A stretch of DNA of 64,000 nucleotides from Rothia sp. (in: high G+C Gram-positive bacteria) (GTDB lineage Bacteria > Actinomycetota > Actinomycetes > Actinomycetales > Micrococcaceae), in the NCBI GenBank assembly GCA_030524105.1, contig JAUNHE010000008.1, positions 1-64,000 on the forward strand, in the 5' to 3' direction. Shown one piece after another: positions 24,341 to 61,565 of this stretch. The notes under the pieces were generated by a model. The model was not told the DNA's origin, did no database searches, and saw only the letters and a list, made by a program, of their open reading frames with translations. Position 1 is the first letter of the stretch. Each line of letters begins with the position of its first letter. Made by a program: the position numbers and the translations under genes.

Positions 24341-25428
24341 CAAAAAATCCTCTGGTCCTTGGAATAGAATCCTCCTGCGACGAAACCGGTATCGGAATCG
24401 TGCGCGGTCAGCAGCTACTGGCCAACACCGTTTCTTCCTCCATGGCAGAACACGTCCGCTTTGGGGGAGTTATTCCAGAGATTGCTTCCAGGGCCCACCT
24501 TGAGGCCATGCTGCCGGCCCTAGAAAGGGCCCTAGAGACCGCCCAGGTGGGCCTGGATGAGCTTGACGCCATTGCCGTCACCGCCGGCCCCGGCCTATCA
24601 GGAGCACTCATGGTGGGGGTTGCGGCCGCTAAGGCCCTAGCCCTGGCCACCGGCAAGCCTCTTTACGCTGTCAACCACCTACTAGCCCACGTGGGGGCTG
24701 GCCTGCTGACAGAGGACACTGGGGCAGGCAAAACAGGCCAGAGCCTCCCGGAAGAAGGGCTGGGTGCCCTCCTGGTCTCTGGCGGACATACCGAAATTCT
24801 GGCCGTCAAAAAACTCAGCAGCGACGTCACCCTGCTGGGGGCAACTCTTGATGATGCAGCTGGAGAGGCCTACGACAAAGTGGCTCGGCTGCTGGGCTTA
24901 GCTTACCCGGGAGGGCCGGCACTGGATGAGGCCGCCCAGGGGGCAGACCCTAGAGCGTTCAGTTTTCCTCGTGGACTAAGCGCTCGCAAGTTCATGGGGA
25001 CCGCCCAAGAGCCCGGACCGCACCGCTATGATTTTAGCTTTTCGGGCCTCAAAACTGCTGTAGCGCGTACGGTAGAGGACTATCAGCGCCAGGGTAAGGA
25101 GTTGCCGGTCGCTGATATCGCTGCTTCTTTTCAGGAGGCAGTAGTAGATGTTCTTGTGGGTAAGACGCTGCTGGCCTGTGCAGAGCAGGGTATTTCGACC
25201 CTGCTCCTGGGGGGCGGAGTTGCTGCTAATTCTGGCCTGCGCCAGCGCCTGCAGGAGGGCTGTGAGCAAGCTGCGGTTACCTGGATTATGCCGCCCTTGA
25301 GCCTGTGTACCGATAACGGTGCCATGGTTGCTGCCTTGGGGGCCCGGCTTGTTGCCGACGGGCGGGCACCTTCTGGCCTGGATTTTCCGGTAGATTCTTC
25401 CCTGCCGGTAGAGACGGTCTGCCTTTAA
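24337..25428 (+). CDS. tsaD: tRNA t6A threonylcarbamoyltransferase TsaD
   Basis: Transfers the threonylcarbamoyl group onto A37 of ANN-decoding tRNAs. It starts [17 protein letters not shown] and has [38 protein letters not shown] (metal-binding histidines), [19 protein letters not shown] and [12 protein letters not shown]. The 363 residues are normal. It overlaps rimI by four bases. Codon choice switches sharply inside the gene near 24980: by my count C:T at third positions is about 76:35 before and 31:45 after, yet the protein is intact. Confidence 0.97.
24979..24987 (+). repeat. GCGCTCGC motif at the skew switch in tsaD
   Basis: Octamer GCGCTCGC at 24980-24987, preceded by A. To its left the + strand is C/A-rich, to its right T/G-rich. 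The same octamer marks two similar switches at 53176 and 61238. Function unknown; see findings. Confidence 0.5.
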
Positions 25429-25446
25429 CTAACCGTTAACCGCGGA

Positions 25447-26595
25447 TTAGCCGGTCCAGGGCTGGCGGGCTTGCTCTACCAGGTAGTCAACAACTGCGGT
25501 GAGGTCTCCTTGATGTTCTTGGGCAAGCTGGCGCTGCTTCCGGTAGCTGCCACCCGCTGCGAGGAGGTTCTGGACCTGGGCTAGTTCTTTGCTGCAGTGC
25601 AGGTCCCGGGCTATAGGTTCTAGCCTGGTCACTAGCCTGCTGATGTCTGTGCTGACCGCTACCTGCCGGTTGTCCTTGTTTTGAATGATGGTTGCTTCCA
25701 GCCCGTAGCGGGCTGCCCGCCACTTATTTTCTTGAATATGCCAGGGTTTAAGGGGCTCGATACTGGCACCAGCTTCTACTTGTCTGCTCAAATCCTCTAC
25801 CAGACATTGGGTGAAGGCGGCTATGGCTGCTAGTTCCGCCAAGGAGGGCAGGCCGTCGCAGACCCGCATTTCGACGGTGCCGTAGCGGCTGACCGGCCGG
25901 ATGTCCCAGCGGTTCTCGCTGGGGTCGTCAATGACCCCGGTTGCTAGCATGTCCTCCAGGTAGCTGGAATAGTCCTGCCAGGTTTCAAAATTAAAGGGTA
26001 GTCCGGCGGTAGGTAGCTGCTGAAACATGAGGGCTCGATGGCTGGCATAGCCGGTGTCCTCTCCCTGCCAGAAGGGGGAGGAAGCTGAGAGGGCTAGCAG
26101 GTGGGGATAGTAGTTAGTCAGGCCGTTTAGGATGGGTAGGGCCTTGCTGCGGGAGTTAACACCGACGTGTACGTGCACCCCGTAGATAACCATTTGCCGC
26201 CCCCAGTATTGGGTGCGTTCGACTACCCGCCGGTAGCGTGTCTTGTTGGCTACTGGCTGCTGAGACCAGCGAGAGAAGGGGTGGGTTCCGGCGGAAAAGA
26301 AACCGATGCCCAGAGGATCGGTGATGGTTTGCAGAGTATCCCGTAACTGTGCTAGCTCTGCCAGCGCCTCTGCAACGGTATGGCAGACTCCGGTTACCAG
26401 CTCTAGTGTGTTGTCGAGGAATTCTCCGGTAATATGAGCACCTCTGCCCTGCTGGACTAGGTCTGGATTTTTTTCTTTAATTTTTTGGAGTACTTCCTGG
26501 GCTCGGGAGGTTAGCTCGCCGCTGCTTTTGTCGACGAGGGCTAGTTCCCATTCCACGCCTAGGGTGGACTGTTCCGATGTTGCGAAAGGGATCAA
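25447..26595 (-). CDS. GCS2-type carboxylate-amine ligase (glutamate-cysteine ligase family 2)
   Basis: Belongs to the YbdK/GCS2 group of ATP-dependent glutamate-cysteine ligase-like enzymes. It has STLGVEWELALVD with the metal-binding glutamates, GAHITGEFLDNTLELVTG, GVHVHVGV with paired histidines, and RPVSRYGTVEMRVCDG. A TTG at 26595 has GGAG five bases upstream and gives 382 residues, the family length; the frame extends to 26658 without a ribosome binding site. Real substrates of this group are mostly unknown. It converges on tsaD with 18 bases between stops. Confidence 0.85.
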   Translation of the reverse strand: MIPFATSEQSTLGVEWELALVDKSSGELTSRAQEVLQKIKEKNPDLVQQGRGAHITGEFLDNTLELVTGVCHTVAEALAELAQLRDTLQTITDPLGIGFFSAGTHPFSRWSQQPVANKTRYRRVVERTQYWGRQMVIYGVHVHVGVNSRSKALPILNGLTNYYPHLLALSASSPFWQGEDTGYASHRALMFQQLPTAGLPFNFETWQDYSSYLEDMLATGVIDDPSENRWDIRPVSRYGTVEMRVCDGLPSLAELAAIAAFTQCLVEDLSRQVEAGASIEPLKPWHIQENKWRAARYGLEATIIQNKDNRQVAVSTDISRLVTRLEPIARDLHCSKELAQVQNLLAAGGSYRKQRQLAQEHQGDLTAVVDYLVEQARQPWTG

Positions 26596-26683
26596 AATTG
26601 CTCCACATGTCCGGCCAGTTTTGTACAATACTAGGCACAGATTGGCCAATATACCCAAACTAACCGAGTAAAAATAAGCTGGC

Positions 26684-27982
26684 CTACGTCATCTTTGATG
26701 GGTGAGGTATGGGCTGGGCCTGGATCGCGATTCTTTGTGATTGCTTTCCTTGGCCGATCCTGGTGAGGATGAGGGTAGCTTCTTGGCCTTTGCTTCCTTT
26801 GCCGGTGCCGGCAAGGAGCTTTTTTCTGAGATCTTCGGGCCGGATATCGAGGCCACGCTTTTTGATGGTGAGGCTGGAAATATTTTCTTCTCTCACCCAG
26901 CGTTTGAGTAGTTTTAGGTTGACGGGCATGGTTGCTAAGACCCGGTAGGCTTGGGCGGCTGGGTGTGGCCTGTAGTGCTGGGAGCTGAGGTAGGCGATAT
27001 TTCTATCGATCAGGTGGGCCCCTAACTCTCTGGCAAGGTCAGCCACCAGGTGGGAGCGAATCACGGCCCCGTCTGGTTCGTAGAGGTAGGTTTCTAGGTC
27101 GGCAATCTTTGCCGGCCTGCTTTGGCTGCTGCTACTGGTTATTTCGGTGCAGAGTTGGCCTTGCGGATCTATTGTGCTGGCAGCTCTGCTGATGCCCTTA
27201 CGGGCCAGCCCGTTAAACCAGAGGATAAGTTCGAGCACGGTTCCGGACTGGCTGATCCACTGGGCTTCTGCTGCTTGGGGAATTAGCTCGTGTGCGGTTG
27301 CCGGGCCTAGCTTAACGGCTAGGGGTAGACCTGTTTGGGCTAGGTCAAGGATGTAGGAGAAGGGGGGAGCGAATTCTTGGGGGTCAAAGATCCTTTCTGC
27401 CCGAGGGCCTTGCCCGGTTTTTCGACGGGCGGGATCTAACCAGATTCCGGCCCGATGCTGCTGGCAGTAGCGGGCAAGAAAATCTGGACTCAGCTGGGTG
27501 AGATCACCGCAGAAAACCCGGGCTGTGGGGTAGTCAGCGAGGTTATGGGCGGCAAAGCTGGCTGTTTCTTTGTCTAGTTCTACTGCCCGGACCCCTAAGT
27601 TGGCTGCGGCAAAGGCTAGGGAATCTGTCCCAATGCCGCAGCCTAGATCAAGAATATTGCTGAGGCCACTCTGGGCTAGGCGCTGGGCACGGTAGCTGGC
27701 AAGTGTGGGCCGGCTAGCCTGCTCATAGCCGGCCTCAGTTAAGAGCAGCTTCTGTGCTTGCTGGCCAAATTTTTGCTGAGCCTTGGTACGTAGTCTGGCT
27801 TGGGTGAGCAGGTAACTAACGTCTTGGCTGCTACGGCCTAGGCTGCGCAGCTTGCTGGCTGCCGCTAGGGCCCGGTCTGGGTGGTAGGGCAGACAAAGCT
27901 CTAGATGGGCTTGGTCCTGCCGGCTCATGCGGGACGGTTCTGCGGGGCTTAACCCTGGGCAGTCGCGTAATGAAAGGTTCAC
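26684..27982 (-). CDS. SAM-dependent methyltransferase with THUMP-like C-terminal domain
   Basis: A 432-residue protein with a class I methyltransferase core (ILDLGCGIGTDSLAFA near residue 112, GIWLDPARRKTG near 180) and a C-terminal THUMP-like region (LKLLKRWVREENISSLTIKK, RGLDIRPEDLRKKL). This two-domain family is common in actinobacteria; an RNA substrate is likely but unproven. The start is a GTG at 27982. It is followed by the GCS2 ligase on the same strand after about 90 bases. Confidence 0.85.
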   Translation of the reverse strand: MNLSLRDCPGLSPAEPSRMSRQDQAHLELCLPYHPDRALAAASKLRSLGRSSQDVSYLLTQARLRTKAQQKFGQQAQKLLLTEAGYEQASRPTLASYRAQRLAQSGLSNILDLGCGIGTDSLAFAAANLGVRAVELDKETASFAAHNLADYPTARVFCGDLTQLSPDFLARYCQQHRAGIWLDPARRKTGQGPRAERIFDPQEFAPPFSYILDLAQTGLPLAVKLGPATAHELIPQAAEAQWISQSGTVLELILWFNGLARKGISRAASTIDPQGQLCTEITSSSSQSRPAKIADLETYLYEPDGAVIRSHLVADLARELGAHLIDRNIAYLSSQHYRPHPAAQAYRVLATMPVNLKLLKRWVREENISSLTIKKRGLDIRPEDLRKKLLAGTGKGSKGQEATLILTRIGQGKQSQRIAIQAQPIPHPSKMT

Positions 27983-28027
27983 GCTACCATCCTAGCGGTG
28001 CGCTGAAGGCGAAACAGTCATGTTATC

Positions 28028-28055
28028 TTGACCTGCCCTTAGGTACGGTTCTAAA
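28028..28055 (+). promoter_or_regulatory. Promoter of groESL
   Basis: A -35 TTGACC at 28028-28033 and a -10-like TCTAAA at 28050-28055 are separated by 16 bases. The CIRCE operator begins eight bases downstream, the usual arrangement for a vegetative promoter repressed by HrcA. Confidence 0.7.
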
Positions 28056-28062
28056 GTTTGTT

Positions 28063-28089
28063 TTAGCACTTGGCTATCTACAGTGCTAA
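28063..28089 (+). promoter_or_regulatory. CIRCE element (HrcA operator)
   Basis: TTAGCACTT at 28063-28071, nine-base spacer, CAGTGCTAA at 28081-28089. This matches the CIRCE consensus (TTAGCACTC-N9-GAGTGCTAA) except for the innermost base of each arm. It predicts heat-shock control of groESL by an HrcA repressor encoded elsewhere. Confidence 0.93.
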
Positions 28090-28180
28090 TTTGGGAGGTG
28101 CTGACACCGCGACGACAGCCCTTGACCAAGCTGTACTGGCCAACCGATTAAGCAAGTAAACCCTTTGGGAGAAAAATAAG

Positions 28181-28474
28181 ATGTCATCTATCAAGCCGCT
28201 TGAAGACCGCGTGGTTGTTCAGATCCTTGAAGCAGAGCAGACCACTGCATCAGGTTTGGTTATTCCCGATACCGCTAAAGAAAAGCCCCAGGAAGCAACC
28301 GTTATTGCTGTTGGTCCTGGCCGTACCGACGATAGCGGTAACCGTATTCCTGTTGATGTTGCTGTTGGCGACACCGTGATCTTCTCCAAGTACGGTGGAA
28401 CCGAGGTAACCTATGCCGGCCAGGATTACCTGATTCTTTCGGCACGTGACGTGCTAGCTATTGTTTCCAAGTAG
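28181..28474 (+). CDS. groES: Co-chaperonin GroES
   Basis: 97-residue lid of the GroEL chamber. It begins [19 protein letters not shown], carries the mobile loop [19 protein letters not shown] and the KYGGTEV turn. A GGGAG site precedes the ATG. First gene of the CIRCE-controlled groESL operon; groEL follows after 31 bases. Confidence 0.98.
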
Positions 28475-28487
28475 GGCCACATTTTAA

Positions 28488-30098
<1,611 letters not shown>

Positions 30099-30121
30099 CT
30101 AGTCGATCTGTGGCTTTACAG

Positions 30122-30172
30122 GAAAAAGCTCTTGGCGTGGATTTAATATTCATGCTGAGAGCTTTTCTTTGT
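30122..30172 (+). terminator. Terminator after groEL
   Basis: AAAAGCTCT (30124-30132) pairs with AGAGCTTTT (30158-30166) across a 25-base loop and is followed by CTTTGTT. The long loop makes it moderate rather than strong. Confidence 0.65.
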
Positions 30173-32545: not shown

Positions 32546-34684
32546 ATGCAAACCACCGTGCCGCCCACATCGGCTGTTCTTGACCACAAGGTATTAGAGA
32601 CCCGAGGCTTTCGTCCAGAGATACAGGGTTTGCGTGCGTTGGCACTTTTTCTGGTAGTCAGCTACCACATTTGGTTTGGCAGGGTTTCTGGTGGCGTAGA
32701 CGTTTTTCTTTTTATCTCCGCTTTTTTGCTCTCCCTCTCTAGCATAAGAAAAATCAACGAGGGCAGGCCCCTGGCCCCCGTAAAGTACTGGCTGCACGTT
32801 TTTCAGCGGCTTTTGCCGGCTGCCGTCACCGTCACCGCTGCAACGGTTGCCGCCTCCTTTATGTTTTTAGCTCCCTCGCGGTTAGCAAGCATTGTTGACG
32901 ATGCCCTAGCCACCCTCTTTTATTTTTTGAACTGGCGGCTGGCCTATAACGCAGTGGACTACTACGCCCAGGACGCTGCGGTTAAAACACCCTTGCAGCA
33001 CTTTTGGTCACTTTCTATGCAGGGGCAAATTTTTATTCTTTGGCCCCTGCTCTTTGTTCTGCTAGCCCTGCTGGTAAAAAGACTAAAACTCCGCCTTGTT
33101 CCGACTGCGCTTTTAGTTTTTGGCCTTATTTTTGCTGCCTCACTGATTTTTTCTATTCAGGAAACAGCCCATAACCAGGGTTTTGCCTATTTTGATACCC
33201 GCGCTCGCCTGTGGGAATTTGCTGGCGGAACCCTCCTTGCTTTGCTGACCTTTAAATGGCGTCCTCCTCGCTGGGCCCGTATCCCTATGGGTTGGCTGGG
33301 AATAATTGGTTTAGTCAGCTGTGGTTTTGTTCTACCGGTAGAGCAGGCATTTCCGGGGTATTTGGCCTTGTGGCCATTGGTCTCTGGGGCCTTGGTTATT
33401 CTTGCCGGTCAAACCGGCTCCCCCCTGGGGGCGGACCGCTTTCTGGCCTCGGGCCCCATGCTTAAACTGGGAGAGGTGTCCTATGCTCTTTACCTCGTTC
33501 ACTGGCCGATTTTTATTATCTACTCCACAAGAACCCAGCAGGATCACCCCGGCCTGGTAGCCGGTACCGGTTTAATAAGCATTTCCCTTGTCTTAGCCTG
33601 GATCATTCATGCTGGGGTAGAGCAGCCGCTTCGCCAAGCAAAAACCTGGCCCTTGCGCTCAGCTGGCAGGAGGGGCCAGCAAAAGGTGGCCTTCTTAAAT
33701 CGTAAGAGCCTTGATTACCTGAGGCCCATGAGCATTATTGTTTCTTGCCTGCTCCTGCTCGCTCTGCCGCTAGCTGCCAGTAAGGCTTGGCTGCAAGAGC
33801 GAGATAGCCAGCTAGCTGCTTTGGCTAGTAGCGCCGGTAGTGACGATTTTCCGGGTGCTTATGCCCTGGGCCAGCGGGAGCGTCACTACAGTTATCCGCC
33901 GATTCCTGCCTCGGACTTGATGAGCCAGTTTAGCGGGCTGGACAAGGGCAATTGCACGGGGGATTTAGCGGTACGTCACCATCAGCTAGCAGCTATGTGC
34001 GGTGCCGAGCGCAACGGGGCACCGGGGGCACCCCTGCTGATGGTTATTGGCGATTCTCACGCCGGTCAGTCGGTTGCTATTTATCGGCAATTAGCTGAGC
34101 GTAGCGGAGCCAACATCATGGATCTGCATTTGGGGGGCTGCACCTTTCCCTTAGAGGCAGAACCCGGCCCGAGCCAGGAATGCCTCACCTACAATGCCTT
34201 GATTGTGGATGAAATCCTGGCCCAACGACCGGCCAGTGTGGCTTTGATGATCACGCAGACTGATCCGGTGACTAATGAAGAGACGGTTCTGACCGGCCTT
34301 GGAGAACAGATTGAACGGATCACTCAGGCGGGTATCAAGGTTATTGGCTTACGGGATAACCCGCGCTGGAAGCAAAATATTTATGACTGTGCCCAGAGCT
34401 CACCGGAGAACCTGCAAAGCTGCTCCCAGCCGCTGTCTCAGAAGTTAAGCCCCCGTAATCCTGCAGCAGAAATGTTGACAAACAACCCCGGCCTGTATGG
34501 GCTTGACTTCACCCAACAGCTATGTCCTGATGATTTGTGTGTACCTGTCATCGGAAATATCTATGTTTATATGGATGATAATCATCTCTCAAAGGCGTAT
34601 GCTACAACATTGATTGAAGAAGCCCAGCGACAGCTTAAAGAGCAGGGTTGGAGTCTTCTGGAAGGACCAGAACCCAGTACATAA
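32546..34684 (+). CDS. Acyltransferase 3 - SGNH membrane protein, copy 2
   Basis: Same architecture as its neighbours: acyltransferase-3 domain (FRPEIQGLRALALFLVVSYH, GGVDVFLFISAFLL, about ten helices), a cytoplasmic loop with basic residues, and a SGNH domain with the canonical block I IGDSHAGQSVAIY and a terminal DDNHLSKAYA. The ATG at 32546 is five bases after AGAGGA and gives 712 residues; the ATG at 32540 overlaps that site. It is the most diverged of the three copies and has the standard GDSH motif, so its acceptor may differ. Confidence 0.88.
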   Translation: MQTTVPPTSAVLDHKVLETRGFRPEIQGLRALALFLVVSYHIWFGRVSGGVDVFLFISAFLLSLSSIRKINEGRPLAPVKYWLHVFQRLLPAAVTVTAATVAASFMFLAPSRLASIVDDALATLFYFLNWRLAYNAVDYYAQDAAVKTPLQHFWSLSMQGQIFILWPLLFVLLALLVKRLKLRLVPTALLVFGLIFAASLIFSIQETAHNQGFAYFDTRARLWEFAGGTLLALLTFKWRPPRWARIPMGWLGIIGLVSCGFVLPVEQAFPGYLALWPLVSGALVILAGQTGSPLGADRFLASGPMLKLGEVSYALYLVHWPIFIIYSTRTQQDHPGLVAGTGLISISLVLAWIIHAGVEQPLRQAKTWPLRSAGRRGQQKVAFLNRKSLDYLRPMSIIVSCLLLLALPLAASKAWLQERDSQLAALASSAGSDDFPGAYALGQRERHYSYPPIPASDLMSQFSGLDKGNCTGDLAVRHHQLAAMCGAERNGAPGAPLLMVIGDSHAGQSVAIYRQLAERSGANIMDLHLGGCTFPLEAEPGPSQECLTYNALIVDEILAQRPASVALMITQTDPVTNEETVLTGLGEQIERITQAGIKVIGLRDNPRWKQNIYDCAQSSPENLQSCSQPLSQKLSPRNPAAEMLTNNPGLYGLDFTQQLCPDDLCVPVIGNIYVYMDDNHLSKAYATTLIEEAQRQLKEQGWSLLEGPEPST

Positions 34685-50037: not shown

Positions 50038-50835
50038 ATGAACCTAGAGAAGCTGATCAACACCTACCAGCACCGTTTTAGCCAAACTGAGCAGGATATT
50101 CTTGCCTTTATGCTTGAAAATCAGGAGTTTTTGGCAGAAACAACCATCAATCAGCTGGCACATAAAACCTATACGTCAACCTCAAGCATTATCCGCTTAA
50201 CCAAAAAATTGGGTTTCTCTGGATTCGCCGAATTAAAATACTTGGTCAAGACCACCCTGAGCCAGCGGGAACCGACCAACCCCAATTTTATTGCTTCCGG
50301 ACTGAGCGATATTAAGCAGACCCTGGACTTTCTCCAGGGCTACGACTTCAGCCCGCTGCTCCAAAAAATACACTCAGCCCGGACACTCTACTGCTACGGC
50401 ACCGGCTACGCCCAACACAATGCCAGTCAAGAATTTGCTAAGTCCCTGCTGGCCTGCGGAAAATTTACCCACCTTATTCCGGCCAGTAGAGAACTTGCGG
50501 CCAGTAGCTCGGTAATGACCGCTACCGACCTTCTGATTCTGGTCTCGCTGTCAGGTAATACAGCGGATGTAGAAGAGAGCATTAAGAAACTATCCCTGCG
50601 TAAAATCCCGATGCTGGCCATTACTGCCCAGTCGGTCAACTATATGGCCAGCACTGCCAGTTACGTCCTGCACTATCAGGCAACCCCCACCCGGCTGGCT
50701 GGTACAGATCACCCCTACCACTCCTTTGTAGCCCTCAACGTCCTCCTGGATTACCTGGTGCGCCGCTACATTGAATTCTTAGAAGAGAGGCCAGCCCATG
50801 AAGGCAGTACAGAACTTCCTGACCGACAGCAGTAA
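50038..50835 (+). CDS. MurR/RpiR family transcriptional regulator
   Basis: 265 residues with an N-terminal RpiR-type helix-turn-helix (about 1-77, TINQLAHKTYTSTSSIIRLT) and a C-terminal SIS domain that binds phosphosugars (CYGTGYAQHNASQEFAKSL, LILVSLSGNTADVEESIKK). It lies 76 bases after the EIICB gene and likely senses the phosphorylated product to control the alpha-glucoside locus. Codon use is C-rich compared with the preceding gene. Its 3' end overlaps the next ORF by 38 bases. Confidence 0.9.
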   Translation: MNLEKLINTYQHRFSQTEQDILAFMLENQEFLAETTINQLAHKTYTSTSSIIRLTKKLGFSGFAELKYLVKTTLSQREPTNPNFIASGLSDIKQTLDFLQGYDFSPLLQKIHSARTLYCYGTGYAQHNASQEFAKSLLACGKFTHLIPASRELAASSSVMTATDLLILVSLSGNTADVEESIKKLSLRKIPMLAITAQSVNYMASTASYVLHYQATPTRLAGTDHPYHSFVALNVLLDYLVRRYIEFLEERPAHEGSTELPDRQQ

Positions 50836-51250
50836 ACTTTCTGCCAGCCTGTTTTACTATTGGCTTATTGCACCCCTGGTTTTCTTAACCTGCGTTTTTT
50901 TGTTAACAAACAGCGGCTCAAACAGCTTCAGGGATATGCTGCAAGAGCCTACGGTCACTCTCTCCTTCATGGCGGCCTGCATGAGTTTAATCCTGGCCGG
51001 CCTCCTCAAACTGGCTCAACGAACGGGTCCGCACAGTCTGAAGACCTTTTGTTTAGTTGCCAGCCTGCAACAACTTTTGGTGGGTAACCTCATCGGGCTG
51101 GTCCTGTCCTTCTGCTTATTTTGGTCCCTGTGCGGACAAGCCTGGCCTCGCCAGAAAAACCCGCTTCTGCTACTAGGAATGGTATTCATTACCTGCTTAA
51201 GCCTGCTCATTAGTTTGCTGAGTATCAACTATTACCTACACCTATCCTGA
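50798..51250 (+). CDS. Small hypothetical membrane protein
   Basis: 150 residues, unrecognised. Four hydrophobic segments (about 20-40, 55-75, 85-110 and 122-145) suggest a polytopic membrane protein; cysteines occur in segments but no motif stands out. The ATG overlaps the end of the RpiR gene and is preceded by GAGAGG, so translation may be coupled. A role linked to the RpiR regulon is only guilt by association. Confidence 0.65.
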   Translation: MKAVQNFLTDSSKLSASLFYYWLIAPLVFLTCVFLLTNSGSNSFRDMLQEPTVTLSFMAACMSLILAGLLKLAQRTGPHSLKTFCLVASLQQLLVGNLIGLVLSFCLFWSLCGQAWPRQKNPLLLLGMVFITCLSLLISLLSINYYLHLS

Positions 51251-51397
51251 CAAGGCCAGCAGCTTAACCATGCCTTGTTGTGAATACTTTCTTTCCACGT
51301 CAAACAGGCTAGAAAGAAGGAGAACCGGGTTATATTCCGTATGATGTAATACGAAGTAAGCTAAATACAGTCAGCATCTGCGAAAGAGCATGGATTC

Positions 51398-54300
51398 GTG
51401 AAAAACCACTTAGCCGGTACCAGCCTCCCATGGGATCCCCAGCAAAAACCGGGTGGAACCAGCCCAGCAGGGGAGAGCGACCAGCAGCAGAGCCCCCAAG
51501 ATGACCCCGAAAAAATCCAGGCAGGCCTGCGCTACTGGCAGCAGGAACTAAGAAACTACACTGGTCCAGAAACACTGCTCTATTTTGAGCCCCAGAACTG
51601 GATCCACATCGACCTCAGCCAGGCCAACCCTTCTGGACTAGCCCAACTCTTAATGGGCCGGCGTACCCGTCTTTCTACCATTCTCAACAATAAAACAAGC
51701 TTTGAAGCTGCCAGCCAGGCAGCCGGCGCCCTGACCCAAAAAATCCGAGAGCTCCAAAGCCAGCACTGCATCGAGGCCGGCTACCTAGCAGCCGGCCTCG
51801 CCCACTGGACAAGCTACAAAACCCCGGACCAAAGCCAGGTACAGCGGCTAGCCCCCATCCTCCTTAACCCGGTGACAATCACCGCCCACCCCGCCGGAAA
51901 GGACTTTGACCTCAGGCTCCACGGAACAGCAAGCCTTAACCCCGGCCTGGTCCGCCAGCTCTACCGTGACTACGGGCTTGACCTCAGCAGCATCAAAGTG
52001 GGACAACTAGCCAATTCCATGGCCAAACTTAACCCCGAACCGGTCATTGACGCAGTGAGAGCTGCTACCAGCAGCATCGCCGACATCAGCATCCACAGTA
52101 CCTACCTGACCTCTACCTTTGCTGACCTAGCCACAGACAAGATTAACCTGCTCCAGAGCCAGCAAACCAGCCCCCTACTCAAGCAGCTAGCCCTGCTACC
52201 TAGCAAAACTGCCAGGCCAAAACCGGCCCCGCTCACCCAGGAGGCCCTACCCCTAGATGAGCGCCCACTAGAGACAGAAATCCTTCTCTACCAAGCAGAC
52301 TCTGCCGCCCAAGAAATTATAGACCTGGCCAGCCAAGGCAAGAGCTTCACTATCACAGCTGCCCCGGGCACTCAGGGGCTTAAGACTGCCTGCAATATAG
52401 CCGCAACCTTAATCAGCCAAGGAAAATCGGTACTGGTTCTCGGCGAAAAAGAAGCAAGCATTCAAGAATTTACCCGGCTGCTAGCCCATAAAAACCTGGC
52501 CCACCTGGTCTACAATCTCCTGGACAAGAGTAAGAATCAGGACCAGCGCCAGCAACTCATCCAAGCTATCGTCAACTATGAGCAAACCAAGGAACCTAAC
52601 CTACAGGCTAGCCAAGAAGAGCTAGGGCAGGTGCGCAGCAAACTAGCCCACCACACCGCAAGCCTGACCGGTCAGCAAGAACCCTGGGGCTGCTCTATCT
52701 ACGACGCCCTCCAAAAGCTAGCAGCCTTAACAAGGCAGGAGCCCGCCCCCACAACCGCAGTCCGCCTTAACAAACAAACCCTCGCCAGCCTAGCCGACCG
52801 TAGCCAAGCCCTAGAAAAACTAAACCGACTAGCCCAGCTAGCAGCCTTCCAACCTGCCACCGAATACTCGGCCTGGCGTAAGGCAAAACTCAACGATAAG
52901 AGTGAAACAGAGGCAGCCTTCCAGCTGGTACAAAACCTGACCACCCTCCTGGGCTCGCTGAGAAACCTCATGAACAGTATGAGCGCTAAAATTGGGATGC
53001 GCTCCGGGCACACCCTCAGAGAATGGAGCCAGCAACTAGACCTGCTTGAACGTATGCAAGAGACCCTCACCTACTTTAGGGTTGAGGTCTACGACAGGCC
53101 CGTTACCGACCTCATCGCCGCTACAGCCACCGGCAGCTGGCGTCGAGAACACGGGGTAGAAATGAGCAGCATGCAGCGCTCGCGGCTACGTAAGGCTGCC
53201 CGCGAGTATATTTTGCCCGGGGTGCATCTGATAGATCTCTACCAGAATTTGCTGATTGTTCAGGCTGAACGGGAGGAATGGATCAGCTGGTCTGACCAAC
53301 CGCAGGAACCGGTCATACCCGCTAATTTAAAGCAGCTCCGGCAGGACTTAGGTGAGCTGGAACAGGAATTTTCTGGCCTAGCCTATGCCCTTGAAGACAG
53401 CCCCGAAGGTAACGATTTTCTGAACACCGATATTGATCAGCTTATTGGCCGGCTACGGCGTTTAACCGTTGATAAGGACCTGCTTGCTAGCCTGCCCGAG
53501 CGCAATAAGCTTATTCAGCAGTTGGAGTCCTGGGGCTTGGCTGATCTGCTGGCTGATTTACGCCAACGGCAGGTTAAGGCAGAGCAGGTGGCCGATGAGC
53601 TAGAGCTAGCCTGGTGGCAGAGTGCCTTAGAACTGATGCTTTCCTCCCACGGGCAGCAGATTCTTGACGGGAATACCCTGCGGGACTTAGAAGAGACTTT
53701 TCGTCAGCTGGATGCCGCTCACCAGGAGGCTAGCCCGGCCAGACTGCAGGCTCTTCTGGCTAAGAATTGGAAGGAGCGCATCCTTGCAGATAAGGGGCAG
53801 GCCAGTTTCTTAAAAGATCAGCTCCGGGCAGCAGACTTTGACTTTGAAGAGGTTCTGCGGCAGGCTCCAAAACTGGTGACGGCCCTGCTGCCACTCTGGC
53901 TGGCCAGCCCCTTTTCTCTCTCACTACCCCTGGCAGCCCAGCTATCCTTTGACCTTTTGCTGATTTTAGATTCCGCTAGCACCCCCTTAGCGGCCAGCCT
54001 GCCAGCTATCTCCCGGGCTCAACAAGTCATCAGCATGGGCGATCCCCACAGCGATTTTTCCCAGCCTTTTGAGGTTGCAACCGCTAATAAACCGGCTGCT
54101 AGTGCAGATACTGCTAGCTTAAGCAGTACGCATGCAGTCCTGGAGCAGCTTCTTGCGGGCCGGCACTTATCCCTTGTCTTAGATAGGGCCGTAGACCCAC
54201 TTGTTCTTGACTACCTTAACTCCACTTTTTATGGGGGTGGCTTGCGGACCTACCCCTGGGCGGAAGAAGCTAACCGGGCAGAGCTGGCTTTGTCCTTTGA

Positions 54301-55288
54301 GCCCCTTGCTGCTAGCTCAGAAGAGGCGGGGGCCGGTAGTGGCAAAGCTAGCCTGGCTCGTGAGGTTGATCGGGTTGTTGAGGCAGTTTTTGAGCAAGCC
54401 CGCTTACATCCGCATCAGTCTTTGGCGGTCATTACCGCTGAAAGTGACCATGCGCAGCGAATTTCTTGGCAGATTCAGCAGCAGCTGGAGTACTACCCGC
54501 ATTTGCAGTCCTTCTTTAAGGCGGAAGCGGCTGAGCCTTTTCGGGTGAGAGATCTTGGCTCCTGCCAGGAGATCGAACGTGATGTCGTGATTTTTTCCCT
54601 GGGCGTTAGGGCTGCCGATATGGCCGCTGCCAGCCGCCCCTGGGGGCTGCTTTCTAGCAGCAAGGGAAGGGCCTACTTTGTGCAGGCTGTCAGCAGAGCC
54701 CGGCACTTAACTCGGCTGATTAGCGCTGCCCTGCCCCCTGATCTGGATGAGACCGGCCTTAGTTCTGGGGCTTTAGATCTTTACCGGCTTCTTCGCCAGC
54801 TTGAGCAGCGCCAGCATCAAAAACCGCAGGAGCAGCAGGCCCTTAACCAGGCTGTTATTAGCGCGGCTTTTGATGGTGAAGACTGGCTCTTAGCCGATGT
54901 TTTGCAGCGCTTAGAAGATAGGGGCGGACGGTTCTGGCCGCAGGCTGGCCCAGGCCTGGCCTTTACGGCCTTGTCTGAGCGGGAGGCTTTACTGGCCGGA
55001 TCTATTCCTAGTAGCAGGGTACGGAGGATGGGTGAGTCCGGCCAGGGGCAGGTCAGCTTTCCTCTGGCTGCTTGGACCGATGGGTCAGCCTCCTACGCTC
55101 GGGCTAGTGTGCGCGAGCGCAGCCGGTTTGTGCCAGATATTTTACGGCGGACGGGCTGGAACTATATGACCCTTTGGTCGGTTGAGGTTTTTTCTAATCC
55201 AGAAGCGGTAACTGATCGTTTGGCGCTGTACCTGGGTTTGGCGGCCAAGGAAAAAGGTAAAAAGCGGACCAAAAGAAACAGCGGGTAG
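51398..55288 (+). CDS. Giant SF1-helicase-like protein with degenerate motifs
   Basis: 1296 residues, similar in layout to large actinobacterial AAA/SF1 helicase-like proteins. An N-terminal domain (about 35-290) precedes a P-loop-like TAAPGTQGLKT (residues 320-329) that lacks a clean GKT. Residues 400-840 are largely helical. The motif II equivalent is ILDSAST (Asp858, no DE pair), and motif III is GDPHSD instead of GDxxQ. A motif V/VI-like segment (SSKGRAYFVQAVSRARH) and a C-terminal endonuclease-like region (about 1210-1285, RRTGWNYMTLWSVEVFSNPE) follow. ATP hydrolysis looks doubtful. Third-position C:T switches from about 39:12 to 30:39 near 53180. Confidence 0.8.
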   Translation: MKNHLAGTSLPWDPQQKPGGTSPAGESDQQQSPQDDPEKIQAGLRYWQQELRNYTGPETLLYFEPQNWIHIDLSQANPSGLAQLLMGRRTRLSTILNNKTSFEAASQAAGALTQKIRELQSQHCIEAGYLAAGLAHWTSYKTPDQSQVQRLAPILLNPVTITAHPAGKDFDLRLHGTASLNPGLVRQLYRDYGLDLSSIKVGQLANSMAKLNPEPVIDAVRAATSSIADISIHSTYLTSTFADLATDKINLLQSQQTSPLLKQLALLPSKTARPKPAPLTQEALPLDERPLETEILLYQADSAAQEIIDLASQGKSFTITAAPGTQGLKTACNIAATLISQGKSVLVLGEKEASIQEFTRLLAHKNLAHLVYNLLDKSKNQDQRQQLIQAIVNYEQTKEPNLQASQEELGQVRSKLAHHTASLTGQQEPWGCSIYDALQKLAALTRQEPAPTTAVRLNKQTLASLADRSQALEKLNRLAQLAAFQPATEYSAWRKAKLNDKSETEAAFQLVQNLTTLLGSLRNLMNSMSAKIGMRSGHTLREWSQQLDLLERMQETLTYFRVEVYDRPVTDLIAATATGSWRREHGVEMSSMQRSRLRKAAREYILPGVHLIDLYQNLLIVQAEREEWISWSDQPQEPVIPANLKQLRQDLGELEQEFSGLAYALEDSPEGNDFLNTDIDQLIGRLRRLTVDKDLLASLPERNKLIQQLESWGLADLLADLRQRQVKAEQVADELELAWWQSALELMLSSHGQQILDGNTLRDLEETFRQLDAAHQEASPARLQALLAKNWKERILADKGQASFLKDQLRAADFDFEEVLRQAPKLVTALLPLWLASPFSLSLPLAAQLSFDLLLILDSASTPLAASLPAISRAQQVISMGDPHSDFSQPFEVATANKPAASADTASLSSTHAVLEQLLAGRHLSLVLDRAVDPLVLDYLNSTFYGGGLRTYPWAEEANRAELALSFEPLAASSEEAGAGSGKASLAREVDRVVEAVFEQARLHPHQSLAVITAESDHAQRISWQIQQQLEYYPHLQSFFKAEAAEPFRVRDLGSCQEIERDVVIFSLGVRAADMAAASRPWGLLSSSKGRAYFVQAVSRARHLTRLISAALPPDLDETGLSSGALDLYRLLRQLEQRQHQKPQEQQALNQAVISAAFDGEDWLLADVLQRLEDRGGRFWPQAGPGLAFTALSEREALLAGSIPSSRVRRMGESGQGQVSFPLAAWTDGSASYARASVRERSRFVPDILRRTGWNYMTLWSVEVFSNPEAVTDRLALYLGLAAKEKGKKRTKRNSG
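53175..53183 (+). repeat. GCGCTCGC motif at the skew switch in the helicase-like gene
   Basis: GCGCTCGC at 53176-53183, preceded by A, as in tsaD. The + strand changes from C/A-rich to T/G-rich at this point without disturbing the reading frame. Confidence 0.5.
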
Positions 55289-55304
55289 TTGGGGAGGAGC
55301 ACTA

Positions 55305-55608: not shown

Positions 55609-55821
55609 CTAGCTGCTTTTGCTGGAATCAGCCTTTGGGCTGGCGCTACTGTCCGTTTTGTAAAAACCTGATCCTTTAAAAACGACTCCTACATTCCCAT
55701 ATTTTTTGCGCAGCTGTTCCTGGCCACATTGGGGGCAAATTTTAAGGGCTGCTTCTGCAAAGGTTTGCTGTTTTTCAAAAAGATGACCACAATTTTTGCA
55801 TTGATAAACGTAGACTGGCAC
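55609..55821 (-). CDS. FmdB family zinc-ribbon protein
   Basis: 70 residues with start PVYVYQCKNCGHLFEKQQ and a second pair CPQCG, a CxxC-x(n)-CxxC zinc ribbon of the FmdB regulator family, followed by a Ser/Lys-rich tail. The GTG at 55821 places the start where FmdB proteins begin (MPxYxYxC); the open frame extends to 55986 but overlaps the next gene and is unlike the family. No strong ribosome binding site. It follows the cyclo-ligase gene on the same strand. Confidence 0.8.
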   Translation of the reverse strand: MPVYVYQCKNCGHLFEKQQTFAEAALKICPQCGQEQLRKKYGNVGVVFKGSGFYKTDSSASPKADSSKSS

Positions 55822-55898
55822 GGGAATCTTCACTTTCTTTTTAGCTGGGTATGCTGTCCCCTTAAAGCTGGGCAGGGTCCAGTATATTTCCTGGCAAG

Positions 55899-56567: not shown

Positions 56568-56658
56568 TCTCTTCCTAACTTGTCCCCATTAAGGTGGGCA
56601 TATTTTTTCTATTTTCTAATCCCTGTGATCACTATCTGCTTCGGGTAAGGTTGAGTCC

Positions 56659-57561: not shown

Positions 57562-57576
57562 AGAACTCTAGTGGGG

Positions 57577-57617
57577 TGGGAGCAGTGCTAAGGAACTGCT
57601 CCCATTCTTTGTGTTTT
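57577..57617 (+). terminator. Terminator after galU
   Basis: A 10-bp perfect stem TGGGAGCAGT (57577-57586) with ACTGCTCCCA (57595-57604), then TTCTTTGTGTTTTT. Confidence 0.9.
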
Positions 57618-57738
57618 TGGACATATTGTAGAAAAGACGTCACTGTAATTACAATATATTCGGCGAATCGTATACCTTCTTAGATACACTTTACTTTTAC
57701 TGGAATGTCAAGGACAAATAACGGATATTGAGGTGCTG

Positions 57739-58767
57739 ATGGGATTGACTTGGCTGGGCGCAACAAGTGTTTTATTGTTGATTGCCGTTGCTGTGTTCAT
57801 CGCTCTTCTGCGTTACTATCGTCATTCCGCTCAGGCCCATATTCATGCAGAAAGATCGGCAGAAGATATTGTGACCGATGAGGTGGATTCGGCAGAAGCC
57901 CAGTCCTTAGCCTTAGCAGAGGGGCAGGGCCAAGCTGCTGCCTACGCCGGCTCTAAGACCTTCTCGGCTCCTGCCAGTTCTAGTAGCCCACCGGAGTTCC
58001 GCCTTAAATGGGGCAGAATAAGTATTTTTTTGCCCGGGCTTTTAGCCCTGCTGGCGGGTATTATCTTGGTTCCCTGTGCCTTATTAACCGATCTGCCTTG
58101 GCTTTGGCCTGGCCTGGCCTGGGCGCTGGCTCTGCTGGCCTTTGCCAGCTTGCGTGCCTTAGCCCTTAAGGATGCCAAGGCCAGGGGGAGGAACTACCGG
58201 GCAGATCCACGTCATCAGCCTGCACCGGAGCAGGGCATTGTGTTAACAAAGGCTCAAAAGGGAGCAGACCAAGAGGCTGAGCAGGGCGCAGACTCCCAGA
58301 AGGACCCGAACGAGGGGGCCGGTTGGGCAACTTTAGGCCAGGCCGGGCAAAAACCCGGGGCAGATGAGGCTGATCAGCTGCTAGAGCTGGCCGAAAGTCC
58401 CGCACAAAGACCGGTAAAAACTCCTGGCCAGCAGCCGGTTAACTATGCGGCTAAGTCTTTACGTTATGCCCGTACTCAGCCCCGGCCAGATAGGTCTTCC
58501 CTGGAAGGAACCGCCGGCGCTGCCCAGATGCAGCTCCACGCTGACCTCGAACCGCGTTTTGAGTCCCAGCAAAAATCCTGGCAGCCTACCCAGGTTCCCC
58601 AGCCCACGTATCTTGAGGTGGAACAGGCCCAGCGTAGTCTGCCGGATCCGGTTGAGATTCCTGCCTATGAAAAATCTGCTTCCAGCTCTCTTAAAGAGGC
58701 GCAGCAGATGGCTGATCTTGCCTCGGGCATGAGCCTTGACGAAATTCTTAAACGGCGTCGGGCCTAA
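57739..58767 (+). CDS. SepX/GlpR-like divisome membrane protein
   Basis: 342 residues. One N-terminal helix (about 7-27), then a polar linker, a pair of helices (about 95-140), a long Gln/Ala-rich disordered part and a C-terminal motif (MSLDEILKRRRA). This topology, with the gene just after galU, matches the actinobacterial SepX/GlpR protein, the membrane receptor that links the gephyrin-like Glp to FtsZ division. The usual glp and rimJ neighbours are missing between it and galU. The ATG at 57739 has GAGG five bases upstream. Identification rests on layout, not on a strong motif. Confidence 0.65.
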   Translation: MGLTWLGATSVLLLIAVAVFIALLRYYRHSAQAHIHAERSAEDIVTDEVDSAEAQSLALAEGQGQAAAYAGSKTFSAPASSSSPPEFRLKWGRISIFLPGLLALLAGIILVPCALLTDLPWLWPGLAWALALLAFASLRALALKDAKARGRNYRADPRHQPAPEQGIVLTKAQKGADQEAEQGADSQKDPNEGAGWATLGQAGQKPGADEADQLLELAESPAQRPVKTPGQQPVNYAAKSLRYARTQPRPDRSSLEGTAGAAQMQLHADLEPRFESQQKSWQPTQVPQPTYLEVEQAQRSLPDPVEIPAYEKSASSSLKEAQQMADLASGMSLDEILKRRRA

Positions 58768-58823
58768 TAGCTTGCAGCTGCTCCTTGAGGAGGAAGGCAG
58801 CCTTTGATGAGCCAGCCTTAAGC

Positions 58824-58861
58824 GAAAGGTGGGGGTTCTGTAACCAGAACCCCCACCTTTC
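58824..58861. terminator. 17-bp perfect hairpin after the sepX/glpR-like gene
   Basis: GAAAGGTGGGGGTTCTG (58824-58840) pairs perfectly with CAGAACCCCCACCTTTC (58845-58861) around a TAAC loop. No U-tract follows, so the stem may act as a strong pause or factor-dependent terminator. Confidence 0.7.
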
Positions 58862-59127
58862 ATCACACACAGGAAGAAAAGTCTTCGACACCAGCTGGAC
58901 GCTTGCTTCCCACAAGCTCACGACCATTCGGTAATAAAAATATAACCTAATTCTGCCGGCTTTGGCTAGTCCTGACCAAAAAAAATATTTATATTACCTA
59001 AAATCAAAGGAAGGTAAGCCTAAGAAAATCTCTTCCTGGGCTCTTTGCGGCAGTAACCTTGCCAGCTCCAGGGAAAAGCCGGCAGGCTCTGCTCAGCGGC
59101 CAGCAGCAGGATAAACTAATAGACGTG
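58862..59127 (+). promoter_or_regulatory. Spacer before the DedA-like gene, with possible DtxR-type half-sites
   Basis: No ORF is evident in most of this spacer (58768-59127 counting the hairpin). AAGGTAAGCCTAA at 59011-59023 matches the left two thirds of the DtxR/IdeR box consensus, and two related CCTAA motifs lie at 58942-58950 and 58993-59001. These could be iron-regulator sites or chance AT-rich matches. The + strand turns C/A-rich after this spacer. Confidence 0.35.
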
Positions 59128-59595
59128 ATGGAATGGATCGAAAGCCTGCATTGGGCCTGGGCTATACTCTTTTTTTGGTGTGTTGGAGCGGTCCGAACCA
59201 GCCTGGTCTACCTGCTGGGTTGGTTAGCCTCGGCAGGCGGCAGCCGGATCAGCAAAATCCATCTGGCCATGCAAACACCCCTTTACGGCAGGGCGCGTGC
59301 TTTTATCAATCGCTGGGGAACCCTGGCAGTGCCTCTCTGTTTTTTGACGGTAGGTTTTCAAACAGCCGTTATCATCACGACCGGATTCACCCGGATGCCC
59401 CTAGCGCGTTGGATACCGGCCATGCTGCTAGGGACCTTTATCTGGGCCGTCATCTATGCAACGGTGGGGATGGCCCTTATTTGGATCTGGCTTAAGAACC
59501 CCCTGCTCCTGGCCCTGGTGCTGCTTGTTCTGCTCCTGCTGATCTTGCTTTTACGGCTGCATAAACCGGCTCAAGATCCGGCCAAGACAAATTAG
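59128..59595 (+). CDS. DedA/VTT-like small membrane protein
   Basis: 155 residues from the ATG at 59128 (the frame also extends to a TTG at 59059 without a ribosome binding site). It opens with a helix MEWIESLHWAWAILFFW, then AFINRWGTLAVPLCFLTVGF and GTFIWAVIYATVGMAL, which resemble the VTT region of DedA-type proteins, and ends in a very hydrophobic Leu-rich helix and a short polar tail. Family placement is tentative, and the start is uncertain. The LysR-like gene follows after 15 bases. Confidence 0.6.
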   Translation: MEWIESLHWAWAILFFWCVGAVRTSLVYLLGWLASAGGSRISKIHLAMQTPLYGRARAFINRWGTLAVPLCFLTVGFQTAVIITTGFTRMPLARWIPAMLLGTFIWAVIYATVGMALIWIWLKNPLLLALVLLVLLLLILLLRLHKPAQDPAKTN

Positions 59596-59610
59596 GTAGA
59601 ATACAAGGCC

Positions 59611-60513
59611 ATGACTAGTGTGCCCAGCCAGCCAAACCCTCAACCGCAGCAGATCCTACCGGATAAGCTATTTCTTGGAGCCTGCCCAGAAAAGCTGGCA
59701 CTTCCTCTACCTGCCCTGGGTAGGCAGCTTAGGATCGGTTATGTTCCCGGCATTATGCCCGATAAATGGTTTGGCCGCTGGAATGAACGCTACCGCAGTA
59801 GCTGCCCTCTAGAAGCCTTTGCCTTAGCAGAAGGGCAGGCTAGCTTAGCCTTGAGCCAGCAGGTAAATGATCAAGCCCTGGTACATATGGTCCTGCTGCG
59901 ACCACAAAGCCAAGGACAAGATCACAATAGGACAGAAAACCTGCATCTGGTGACCCTCTACCGGGAGCAGCAGGTGGTGGTGCTACCCCAGGACCATACC
60001 CTTACCCTTTACCAGCAGGTTCCCCTGGAGGAACTAGCCGATCAAGACCTGCTTCGGGCTCCCGACTCCCCACCAGACTTAGCTGGCAGGCTGCTAGGAG
60101 GCCAGCAGGAGAAGGACTACCTGCTGGACACCGCGCAGACCCTGGAGCTGGTTGCAGCCGGATTGGGTTTGGCGGTGCTGCCCCTCTCTCTTGCCCGCGT
60201 ATACCATCGCAAGGATCTAACCTACCGTCCTGTAGAAGGTTTAGCGACCAGCCCGGTTGCCCTGGCCTGGCCCCGCCACTGCTACTCTCCTCAAGAGGAA
60301 GCTATTCTCCAAGATTTTGTGGGAATATGCCGGGGCAGAACAGCCGGGTCCCAACGCAGTAGCCAGGACCGGCTGGAAGCACAAAAACCTGTCCCGGCAA
60401 AAAAGAGCGCCCAAAGGCCAAGCCGGTCTGGCAAGAGGGCCACCCCCTCCCGTCAGAAAAAAGTAAGACGGCAGAGGAGTAGCCGGGCTACTCAGGGAAA
60501 ATCGGGTAGGTAA
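59611..60513 (+). CDS. LysR substrate-binding-domain protein lacking HTH
   Basis: 300 residues. The region about 38-250 follows the LysR effector-binding fold (LRIGYVPGIMPDKW, LVTLYREQQVVVLPQDH, LELVAAGLGLAVLPLSLARV), but no helix-turn-helix precedes it. The last 60 residues are Lys/Arg/Ser-rich and disordered-looking (KKVRRQRSSRATQGKSGR). Actinobacteria carry a family of such HTH-less proteins; the ligand and role are unknown, and the basic tail could bind nucleic acid. AAGG precedes the ATG. Confidence 0.75.
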   Translation: MTSVPSQPNPQPQQILPDKLFLGACPEKLALPLPALGRQLRIGYVPGIMPDKWFGRWNERYRSSCPLEAFALAEGQASLALSQQVNDQALVHMVLLRPQSQGQDHNRTENLHLVTLYREQQVVVLPQDHTLTLYQQVPLEELADQDLLRAPDSPPDLAGRLLGGQQEKDYLLDTAQTLELVAAGLGLAVLPLSLARVYHRKDLTYRPVEGLATSPVALAWPRHCYSPQEEAILQDFVGICRGRTAGSQRSSQDRLEAQKPVPAKKSAQRPSRSGKRATPSRQKKVRRQRSSRATQGKSGR

Positions 60514-60533
60514 AAACAAGCGGTTTGACTAAA

Positions 60534-61565
60534 CTAACCCTTGCCTGCCGGTCCCGCTGGGGGCTGCTGGGGTGCTATAACCGGAAAAGACTGTGTCTTG
60601 GGGTTATAAGTGCGTACCAGGGACTGATTAGCCAGCGGAATCCTGGCCCCAGCCTGATCCAAAGCCTTTTTGAGAGCTACCCGCAGTACTCTGGCGATAC
60701 TCCACTGCTCACTCGGCGCGGTTTTAACAGAAATACGCAGCGTCAGGGATTCCCCGGTCACAGATTCCACTCCCAAAACTTCCGGCGGCCCGTAGACATG
60801 ATTCTTAATGGTGGGATCGGCCAGAGCCTGCCGGGCTGCCCTGAGGAGCAAGTCGCTGATCTCTTCGACGTCAGAATCGTAGGGAATGGGAAGATCAATA
60901 TTGGTGCGTGACCAGCCTTGAGAGGAATTGCCCACCCGCAAAATTTCTCCATTACGCACATGCCAGAGGGTTCCGTTTGCATCGCGTACCTGCGTAATAC
61001 GTAGACCGACCGATTCCACGGTGCCAGAGGCTTCGCCCAGGTCCACAAAGTCACCGATACCTAGCTGATCTTCGGCAACAATAAAAATACCGGAAAGAAA
61101 ATCCTTGACCAGAGACTGGGCCCCAAAAGAAAGAGCAACACCGGCAATACCGGCGGAGGCAATAACGGGGGCAATGTTAAAACCAAGCTCGGCAATAATC
61201 ATTAAAATAGCCACCGTGCATACCACAATAGAGGCAAGCGAGCGCAGGACAGAACCAACCGTTCGGGCTCGTTGTGCCTGCCTAGAGTTAGAGACGGCGG
61301 TGTCGGCAGCGTAGGTGCTGCTGCCGTCGGTGTAGGTGTTTTTAACAATTCTGGCTGAGGTTCCGCGGGCAACGGAGTGTGTGATTTTGCGGATGAGCAC
61401 GCTGAGCAAGAATCTGATCAGGAGGGCGCCAATAATGATCAGGACAATGCGTAGGGGGTGGTTAAGCCAGAACTGAATGTCAAAGATAGTCTTTAAGGTT
61501 TCGCTCAGGCTAGAAGCAGAAAGCATAAAAAGACCTGTGCCGCTGTAACTCAAAAACAATTCCAT
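60534..61565 (-). CDS. mscS: MscS family mechanosensitive ion channel
   Basis: 343 residues with N-terminal helices (about 30-60 and 105-130), the pore-lining TM3 segment GIAGVALSFGAQSLVKDFLSG and the MscS beta domain (QLGIGDFVDLGEASGTVESV, GLRITQVRDANGTLWHVRNG). The C-terminal domain ends with a Pro/Ala tail. It gates under osmotic downshock; with mscL it provides two tension-gated channels in this window. On its coding strand, third-position C:T changes from about 51:25 to 26:39 at the octamer near 61240. Confidence 0.93.
   Translation of the reverse strand: MELFLSYSGTGLFMLSASSLSETLKTIFDIQFWLNHPLRIVLIIIGALLIRFLLSVLIRKITHSVARGTSARIVKNTYTDGSSTYAADTAVSNSRQAQRARTVGSVLRSLASIVVCTVAILMIIAELGFNIAPVIASAGIAGVALSFGAQSLVKDFLSGIFIVAEDQLGIGDFVDLGEASGTVESVGLRITQVRDANGTLWHVRNGEILRVGNSSQGWSRTNIDLPIPYDSDVEEISDLLLRAARQALADPTIKNHVYGPPEVLGVESVTGESLTLRISVKTAPSEQWSIARVLRVALKKALDQAGARIPLANQSLVRTYNPKTQSFPVIAPQQPPAGPAGKG
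61238..61246 (-). repeat. GCGCTCGC motif at the skew switch in mscS
   Basis: GCGCTCGC on the minus strand at 61245-61238, preceded there by T, within the mscS codons for LRSLAS. The coding strand is C-rich before it and T-rich after it, the same kind of switch as in tsaD and the helicase-like gene. Confidence 0.5.

Follow-up and report, generated by a model that had tools for sequence, protein, structure and literature searches.

An exact octamer at strand-composition switches in a Rothia genome: a candidate Chi-like signal

In the RecBCD and AddAB schemes of DNA-end repair, strand exchange uses the strand 5' of a Chi site as its 3' tail, and the complementary strand is first resected and then resynthesised. 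Here we describe the octamer GCGCTCGC and the abrupt changes of strand composition that accompany it in a 64-kb stretch of Rothia DNA, hereafter the window, which is the first 64 kb of the 167-kb contig C6 in a genome of 2.19 Mb and 11 contigs. With the FtsK-orienting polar sequences (KOPS) and other architecture-imparting polar octamers, GCGCTCGC has in common that it is an 8-mer with a leading-strand bias; its bias is, however, only partial, a GGGGGAG word being the stricter candidate, and a composition step is to our knowledge no property of KOPS. With replication origins, and with the 'factory-roof' skew of multi-origin chromosomes known from mammalian work, it shares sharp upward steps at defined points and diffuse falls between them, but here the steps are set by one exact 8-mer, and the spectrum on its 5' side is unlike the chromosome's own replication skew. 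To the Chi words of RecBCD and AddAB (GCTGGTGG in E. coli; GCGGTGGT in Caulobacter, a putative Chi in PMC5443536) the likeness extends to a short, exact, asymmetric and over-represented word that is polar, lies mostly on the leading strand and has its main change on the 5' side. The word itself differs, the genome carries AdnAB-like genes with RecC not found, and a composition switch occurs only at GCGCTCGC, as judged against 450 kb of E. coli, the effect of GCGCTCGC being known from composition only.

In the open-access literature, with subscription journals mostly outside this scope, searches on Rothia skew, AdnAB and Chi, Chi and skew, and bacterial factory-roof patterns gave no description of such switches in the titles and abstract openings of the matches listed, and the word GCGCTCGC was found only in a reovirus paper that is unrelated by its listing.

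Composition switches at the octamer

The original prediction held that three sharp plus-strand changes fall inside intact genes, each at a copy of GCGCTCGC. To score them, we used plus-strand G+T at third codon positions, taking for each gene the best internal split by log-likelihood ratio (LLR); genes were called by a simple codon-score caller. All three switches were recovered, each from A/C-rich to G/T-rich, with the octamers where they had been placed and the best splits 72, 3 and 21 bp away in tsaD, a helicase-like gene and mscS (LLR 11.3, 59.1 and 9.8, respectively). Additionally, each copy was given a step (delta), that of third-position G+T over 1 kb on either side, read along the octamer strand. 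The copies in the window and the genes holding the switches are as follows.

24337..25428, plus strand: tsaD (Pfam TsaD, E 1.9e-85)
24980..24987, plus strand: GCGCTCGC at the switch inside tsaD; best split 25056, G+T 0.43 to 0.69
33201..33208, plus strand: GCGCTCGC without a switch; delta +0.02
51398..55288, plus strand: helicase-like gene (Pfam DUF4011)
53176..53183, plus strand: GCGCTCGC at the switch inside the helicase-like gene; best split 53176, G+T 0.31 to 0.61, LLR 59.1
55113..55120, minus strand: GCGCTCGC without a switch; delta -0.02
60534..61565, minus strand: mscS (Pfam mechanosensitive channel domains)
61238..61245, minus strand: GCGCTCGC at the switch inside mscS; best split 61263, G+T 0.40 to 0.66

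Counted over whole gene parts, C:T on the coding strand goes from 76:40 to 35:45 in tsaD and from 259:74 to 173:205 in the helicase-like gene, and in mscS it is 50:25 on the octamer's 5' side and 61:78 on its 3' side; the hand counts made earlier were local and run in the same direction. The two copies without a switch are, as had been stated, the only further ones in the window. The octamer had also been said to be read in a different frame in each protein: the reading phases do differ (1, 2 and 2), but two of the three proteins share one. By itself the number of copies in the window is unremarkable, since 2.02 are expected against the five found and at least five occurred in 6 of 100 shuffles.

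Because the motif had been spotted only after the switches, we tested it outside the window. The whole genome holds 103 copies; we fetched 76 of them and could score 72. In the first set, 859 kb of the genome with the window included, 45 of 46 copies could be scored and gave a mean step of +0.144; far from lying mostly away from change points, 28 of the 45 rise by more than 0.1, and one falls by more than 0.1. The 40 of them outside the window have the same mean (+0.144; 25 above 0.1, one below -0.1), which was reached by none of 2,000 random shifts. A later-fetched set, consisting of stretches chosen around octamers (all 27 copies on C9 and C10 plus three on C11), yielded 27 scored copies out of 30, the other three having too few third positions, as did one of the 46 in the first set; their mean is +0.149, with 18 above 0.1 and two below -0.1, again reached by none of 2,000 shifts. 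Chance sharing of the motif, which had been left open, is excluded by these copies.

Furthermore, a scan of all 8-mers near skew steps, proposed together with the original prediction, placed GCGCTCGC first for a rising step among the 28,282 8-mers with at least eight scored occurrences in the 859 kb (z 11.4; best unrelated word 4.8, lowest -5.0). One-mismatch variants are weak, the highest being TCGCTCGC (z 2.5, n 2) and GCGCCCGC (z 2.4, n 14), and no conserved positions flank the octamer, which rules out a longer or degenerate motif. GCGCTCGC is thus a short, exact, non-palindromic signal. Among 605 genes, 22 rising and three falling sharp within-gene switches (LLR above 8) were found, compared with no rising and one falling switch in one shuffle per gene; 15 of the 22 rising and none of the three falling switches lie within 300 bp of an octamer. 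The later-fetched stretches, chosen around octamers, add 13 rising switches (11 of them near a copy) and one falling switch in 229 genes. In the part of the genome examined, with its 72 scored copies, GCGCTCGC is with near certainty a sequence-specified, orientation-dependent start of a strand-asymmetric composition change, and the idea that a strand-asymmetric process starts or stops at the octamer is strongly supported. That the association is an artefact of chance, codon usage or gene orientation might be argued from the order in which motif and switches were noticed and from the five window copies, which are not far above chance; it is practically negligible in view of the outside-window and later-fetched copies, the scan of all 8-mers, the within-gene splits and the equal values in both gene orientations, the last two of which rule out codon usage and gene orientation.

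GCGCTCGC is over-represented in genes (44 copies against 22.5 expected), where it ranks first of 9,734 8-mers by Markov observed/expected ratio and first also by z among 32,113; avoidance of the kind seen for restriction sites was accordingly not observed. The leading strand, assigned from the majority gene direction (a weak assignment for C3, with 30 of 65 genes on the plus strand), carries 37 of the 44 genic copies (84%), which is rank 6 of 14,385 by fraction; of the five words above it, four contain GGGGGAG. In seven congeners the share is 112 of 155 (72%, rank 4 of 4,213); polarity is not strict in congener G001, where 100 kb hold eight copies on the plus strand and 16 on the minus strand. 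Words with GGGGGAG are nearly all on the leading strand (CGGGGGAG 93:2 and TGGGGGAG 61:1 in the seven congeners; TGGGGGAG 35:3 in the genic DNA of this genome) and are candidate KOPS. A KOPS-like segregation guide with an indirect link to composition would explain the leading-strand polarity of the octamer, but is very improbable, as that polarity is partial in both samples compared with the near-absolute bias of the GGGGGAG words and KOPS are not expected to have a mutational effect.

Form and spectrum of the change

Around the 28 switch copies, the octamer strand has rounded base fractions of about A 0.28, C 0.36, G 0.21 and T 0.15 on the 5' side (about -3 kb to -0.3 kb), compared with A 0.21, C 0.27, G 0.28 and T 0.24 in the distant background and A 0.18, C 0.23, G 0.34 and T 0.25 on the 3' side near the site, where the change fades by about 5 kb. 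The G+C content near GCGCTCGC is hardly altered. The mean position of the step is some tens of bases 5' of the octamer, within 100 bp for most strong copies, and the length of the 5' tract varies by copy from about 2 to 6 kb. In the window, the tracts are:

19291..24831: A/C-rich tract of the plus strand 5' of the octamer at 24980; third-position G+T 0.374, neighbours 0.519 and 0.620
50712..53170: A/C-rich tract of the plus strand 5' of the octamer at 53176; third-position G+T 0.308, neighbours 0.507 and 0.581
59238..61237, edges approximate: tract 3' of the octamer at 61238; octamer-strand G+T 0.58, 0.60 and 0.50 within 2 kb of the site and about 0.4 beyond

The copy at 61238 is a lagging-strand one, and it is its 3' side, not its 5' side, that departs from the surroundings. 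Overall, the 38 leading-oriented copies show -0.112 on the 5' and +0.050 on the 3' side, and the seven lagging-oriented ones -0.071 and +0.026, with the same sign and large errors. The effect extends, in weaker form, to codon positions 1 and 2 and to intergenic DNA, and at position 3 it is equal in genes of both orientations; it therefore looks mutational and not a matter of codon choice. In 800 1-kb bins of the 859 kb, octamer proximity explains 11.5% of the variance in strand composition, replication strand 5.5% and gene strand 1.7%, so that a sequence-specified source of strand-asymmetric mutation outweighs the replication strand. Origins, inversions or imports inferred from skew would misread such octamer switches.

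An import mosaic, in which tracts from a lineage of opposite strand composition end at the octamer, would agree with tracts a few kilobases long that have definable ends, and Chi-like sites can indeed bound imported DNA. Imports should, however, yield falling as well as rising switches, whereas 22 rising and three falling ones were found, and the sign is alike in leading- and lagging-oriented copies; on the imbalance we reject this explanation, which is even less probable than the KOPS-like one.

The main rival is replication: forks leaving the octamer, or a displacement loop (D-loop) near it, in both directions would put leading- and lagging-strand composition on either side, as at an origin, and would likewise give a two-sided pattern. 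In its favour, both sides of the octamer shift, and sharp rising with mostly diffuse falling switches is origin-like; D-loop replication in the wrong direction is also known in E. coli lacking RecG (PMC4752480). The gene-balanced skews speak against it. Away from octamers, the leading strand (C6, C1 and C2 pooled) has G-C +0.060 and T-A +0.022, which the 3' side of the switch copies resembles (+0.094 and +0.048), but the 5' side (-0.131 and -0.142 for switch copies; -0.091 and -0.097 for all scored copies) is not the mirror image of these values, being stronger than replication skew with equal G/C and T/A parts. Moreover, gene direction on the 5' side does not follow the leftward forks that would be required (12,727 third positions in octamer orientation versus 8,202), and the genome, like the eight congeners searched, has a RecG_wedge match. 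A local replication start is thus unlikely, and it is chiefly for the difference of the 5' side from mirror-image replication skew that we prefer a repair process. The main effect of the octamer is a tract on its 5' side, A/C-enriched on the octamer strand and distinct from replication skew.

Regarding falls of composition, two octamers on C1 (G000:C1:155700 to C1:161699) face away from each other, and the DNA between them is common to both. There, plus-strand G+T drops from 0.77 to 0.16 at about 159.1 kb, between genes of the same direction, and this is the strongest switch of the composition segmentation (LLR 293).

A putative signal for AdnAB

The three mechanisms offered by the original prediction fared differently: an import boundary is contradicted by the 22 rising and three falling switches, replication restart is disfavoured by the 5' spectrum, and a Chi-like recombination stop fits best, because GCGCTCGC is an 8-mer that is exact and asymmetric, occurs more often than expected, lies mainly on the leading strand and has its main effect 5'. 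A search for RecC (PF04257) in this genome and eight congeners found no match. The candidate reader is a pair of genes elsewhere on the contig:

C6:141891-145163 and C6:145130-148684: adjacent long genes with PDDEXK_1 nuclease matches

Both also match UvrD/Rep, RecB and AddA helicase models below the cut-offs, and the second has its best solved relatives among UvrD/Rep helicases of 1,095 residues, e.g. 6ppu_B, entries that we take to be mycobacterial AdnAB. From the nuclease matches, the helicase models and the structural relatives together, we read the pair as probably AdnAB-like. Loss of NucS or RecG was considered as a reason for the strong effect in this genome and rejected, as both families match here and in the eight congeners. 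Octamers with a step also lie inside the AdnB-like gene (C6:146893) and inside a gene with a RecG_wedge match (C1:49886), probably by coincidence.

The best explanation of the pattern, to which we give a probability of about 0.5, is that GCGCTCGC is a Chi-like repair or recombination signal read by AdnAB. A DNA end would be processed from the octamer's 3' side by the AdnAB helicase-nuclease, which would recognise the octamer; degradation of the octamer strand would stop there, a 3' tail of this strand would remain 5' of the site, and the complementary strand 5' of the octamer would be resected and later rebuilt. Errors of rebuilding would be mostly G.T wobbles (T opposite G, G opposite T) that are poorly corrected, so that the rebuilt strand would gain T and G and the octamer strand therefore A and C. 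Such errors would appear on the octamer strand as G-to-A and T-to-C without a net change in G+C, which would fit the composition, and DNA synthesis extending the 3' end at the octamer may account for the smaller G/T gain on the 3' side. Where a copy shows no switch, it may be recent or seldom used. As the source of the pattern, deamination of the exposed tail was rejected, since it would give C-to-T on the octamer strand, opposite to what is observed. Slightly below even odds, we suggest that GCGCTCGC could be the first recombination signal for AdnAB-class end processors, its use writing a strand-specific record of wobble errors 5' of the site in the resected and rebuilt strand. If this is true, genome sequence alone would suffice to read both the signals of repair and how they were used in the past. 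In the chromosome part examined, the octamer accounts for a larger share of local strand composition than the replication strand; an exact candidate sequence with its orientation is now given for testing.

A site cut or nicked by the cell itself would be a different kind of repair origin: a cellular or mobile endonuclease would cut the DNA at the octamer or next to it, and the asymmetry would stem from the repair of such breaks. The average position of the step, some tens of bases 5' of the octamer, suits such a site, as does the stronger effect here than in the sampled congeners. However, the octamer is over-represented and not avoided, its association with steps is genus-wide, and no nuclease was identified, the type I restriction family PF13588 having been sought and not found, with other restriction families not searched; we consider this explanation rather less probable still than a local replication start.

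Congeners, other bacteria and opposing evidence

In eight congeners (1.14 Mb), GCGCTCGC again ranks first for a rising step, among 7,809 8-mers in the pooled scan (z 6.4, 182 scored copies), and it is also first in congener G010 taken by itself (z 4.5). The mean step of +0.049 (53 copies above 0.1, 12 below -0.1) was reached by none of 2,000 shifts, and 24 of 61 rising within-gene switches in 763 genes lie near a copy, compared with one of 31 falling ones; the effect is weaker than in the genome described here. Taken one by one, 11 of 13 congeners have a positive mean step, though in some of these it is about zero, and G005 and G034 have a slightly negative one. Beyond the genus, other Micrococcaceae show a weak effect (27 loci, 133 copies scored; z 2.2, rank 265 of 7,500) and other actinobacteria none (53 loci, 364 copies scored; z 0.1). 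Step amplitude goes with low G+C across 14 species (rho -0.67, p 0.009).

A number of observations weigh against a Chi-like signal read by AdnAB. Within this genome, 17 of the 45 copies in the 859 kb have no step above 0.1, and seven of the 22 rising switches are more than 300 bp from any octamer; the mutation types are deduced from composition, since the best tsaD identity to any relative compared is 76%. Step size shows no significant correlation with the distance to the next co-oriented copy on the 3' side, either here (rho 0.10, p 0.56, n 37) or in the congeners (rho 0.14, p 0.08, n 163), and a relation to octamer density across the 14 species found no support (rho -0.13). In the congeners, over-representation is milder (179 against 139 expected), placing the octamer ninth among 29,258 words by z and 60th among 2,866 by ratio. 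At the site matching 53176, G003 and G013 carry it but show no switch, and the orthologues of G001, G009 and G010 lack it and still rise by 0.09 to 0.17. At the tsaD place, five of 19 orthologous loci rise by 0.10 to 0.13 without it, compared with 0.22 here. In the congener scan, the falling steps of three words roughly match or exceed the octamer's rise in strength, the lowest z being -6.8. Finally, the E. coli Chi word GCTGGTGG, meant as a positive control, shows no step at its 117 sites in 450 kb (105 scored; z 0.4).

The rising switches without an octamer lie at G000:C3:3542, C6:160322, C5:34138, C3:77045, C2:186208, C1:186816 and C1:173618, and could mark lost copies or a second signal. 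A check for decayed octamers found a one-mismatch word within 300 bp in two of the seven, the background being 26%; at C3:3542, GCGCTCAC lies 40 bp off in the expected orientation. The strongest falling words are ACCAGGCT in the congeners (z -6.8) and GCGTCTTA in E. coli (z -8.3), and words of this kind are perhaps transfer RNA (tRNA) or intergenic repeat sequence.

As for the helicase-like gene at 51398-55288, residues 632-1182 of its product resemble the NCBIfam model antiphage_ProA (anti-phage protein ProA; E 2.3e-82), at 277 bits versus a cut-off of 1500. In its orthologues from five congeners (L166-L170), the coding strand is strongly C-rich, with third-position G+T of about 0.3 to 0.4, and the size of the locus GC skew is about 0.12 to 0.135, unlike in the other congeners. 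On contig C1 of the genome described here, G000:C1:140567-148726 and C1:153827-157888 comprise a 93-repeat array holding GTGCTCCCCGCG and genes nearby, which, by the look of their opening residues, are presumably a type I-E CRISPR-Cas set.

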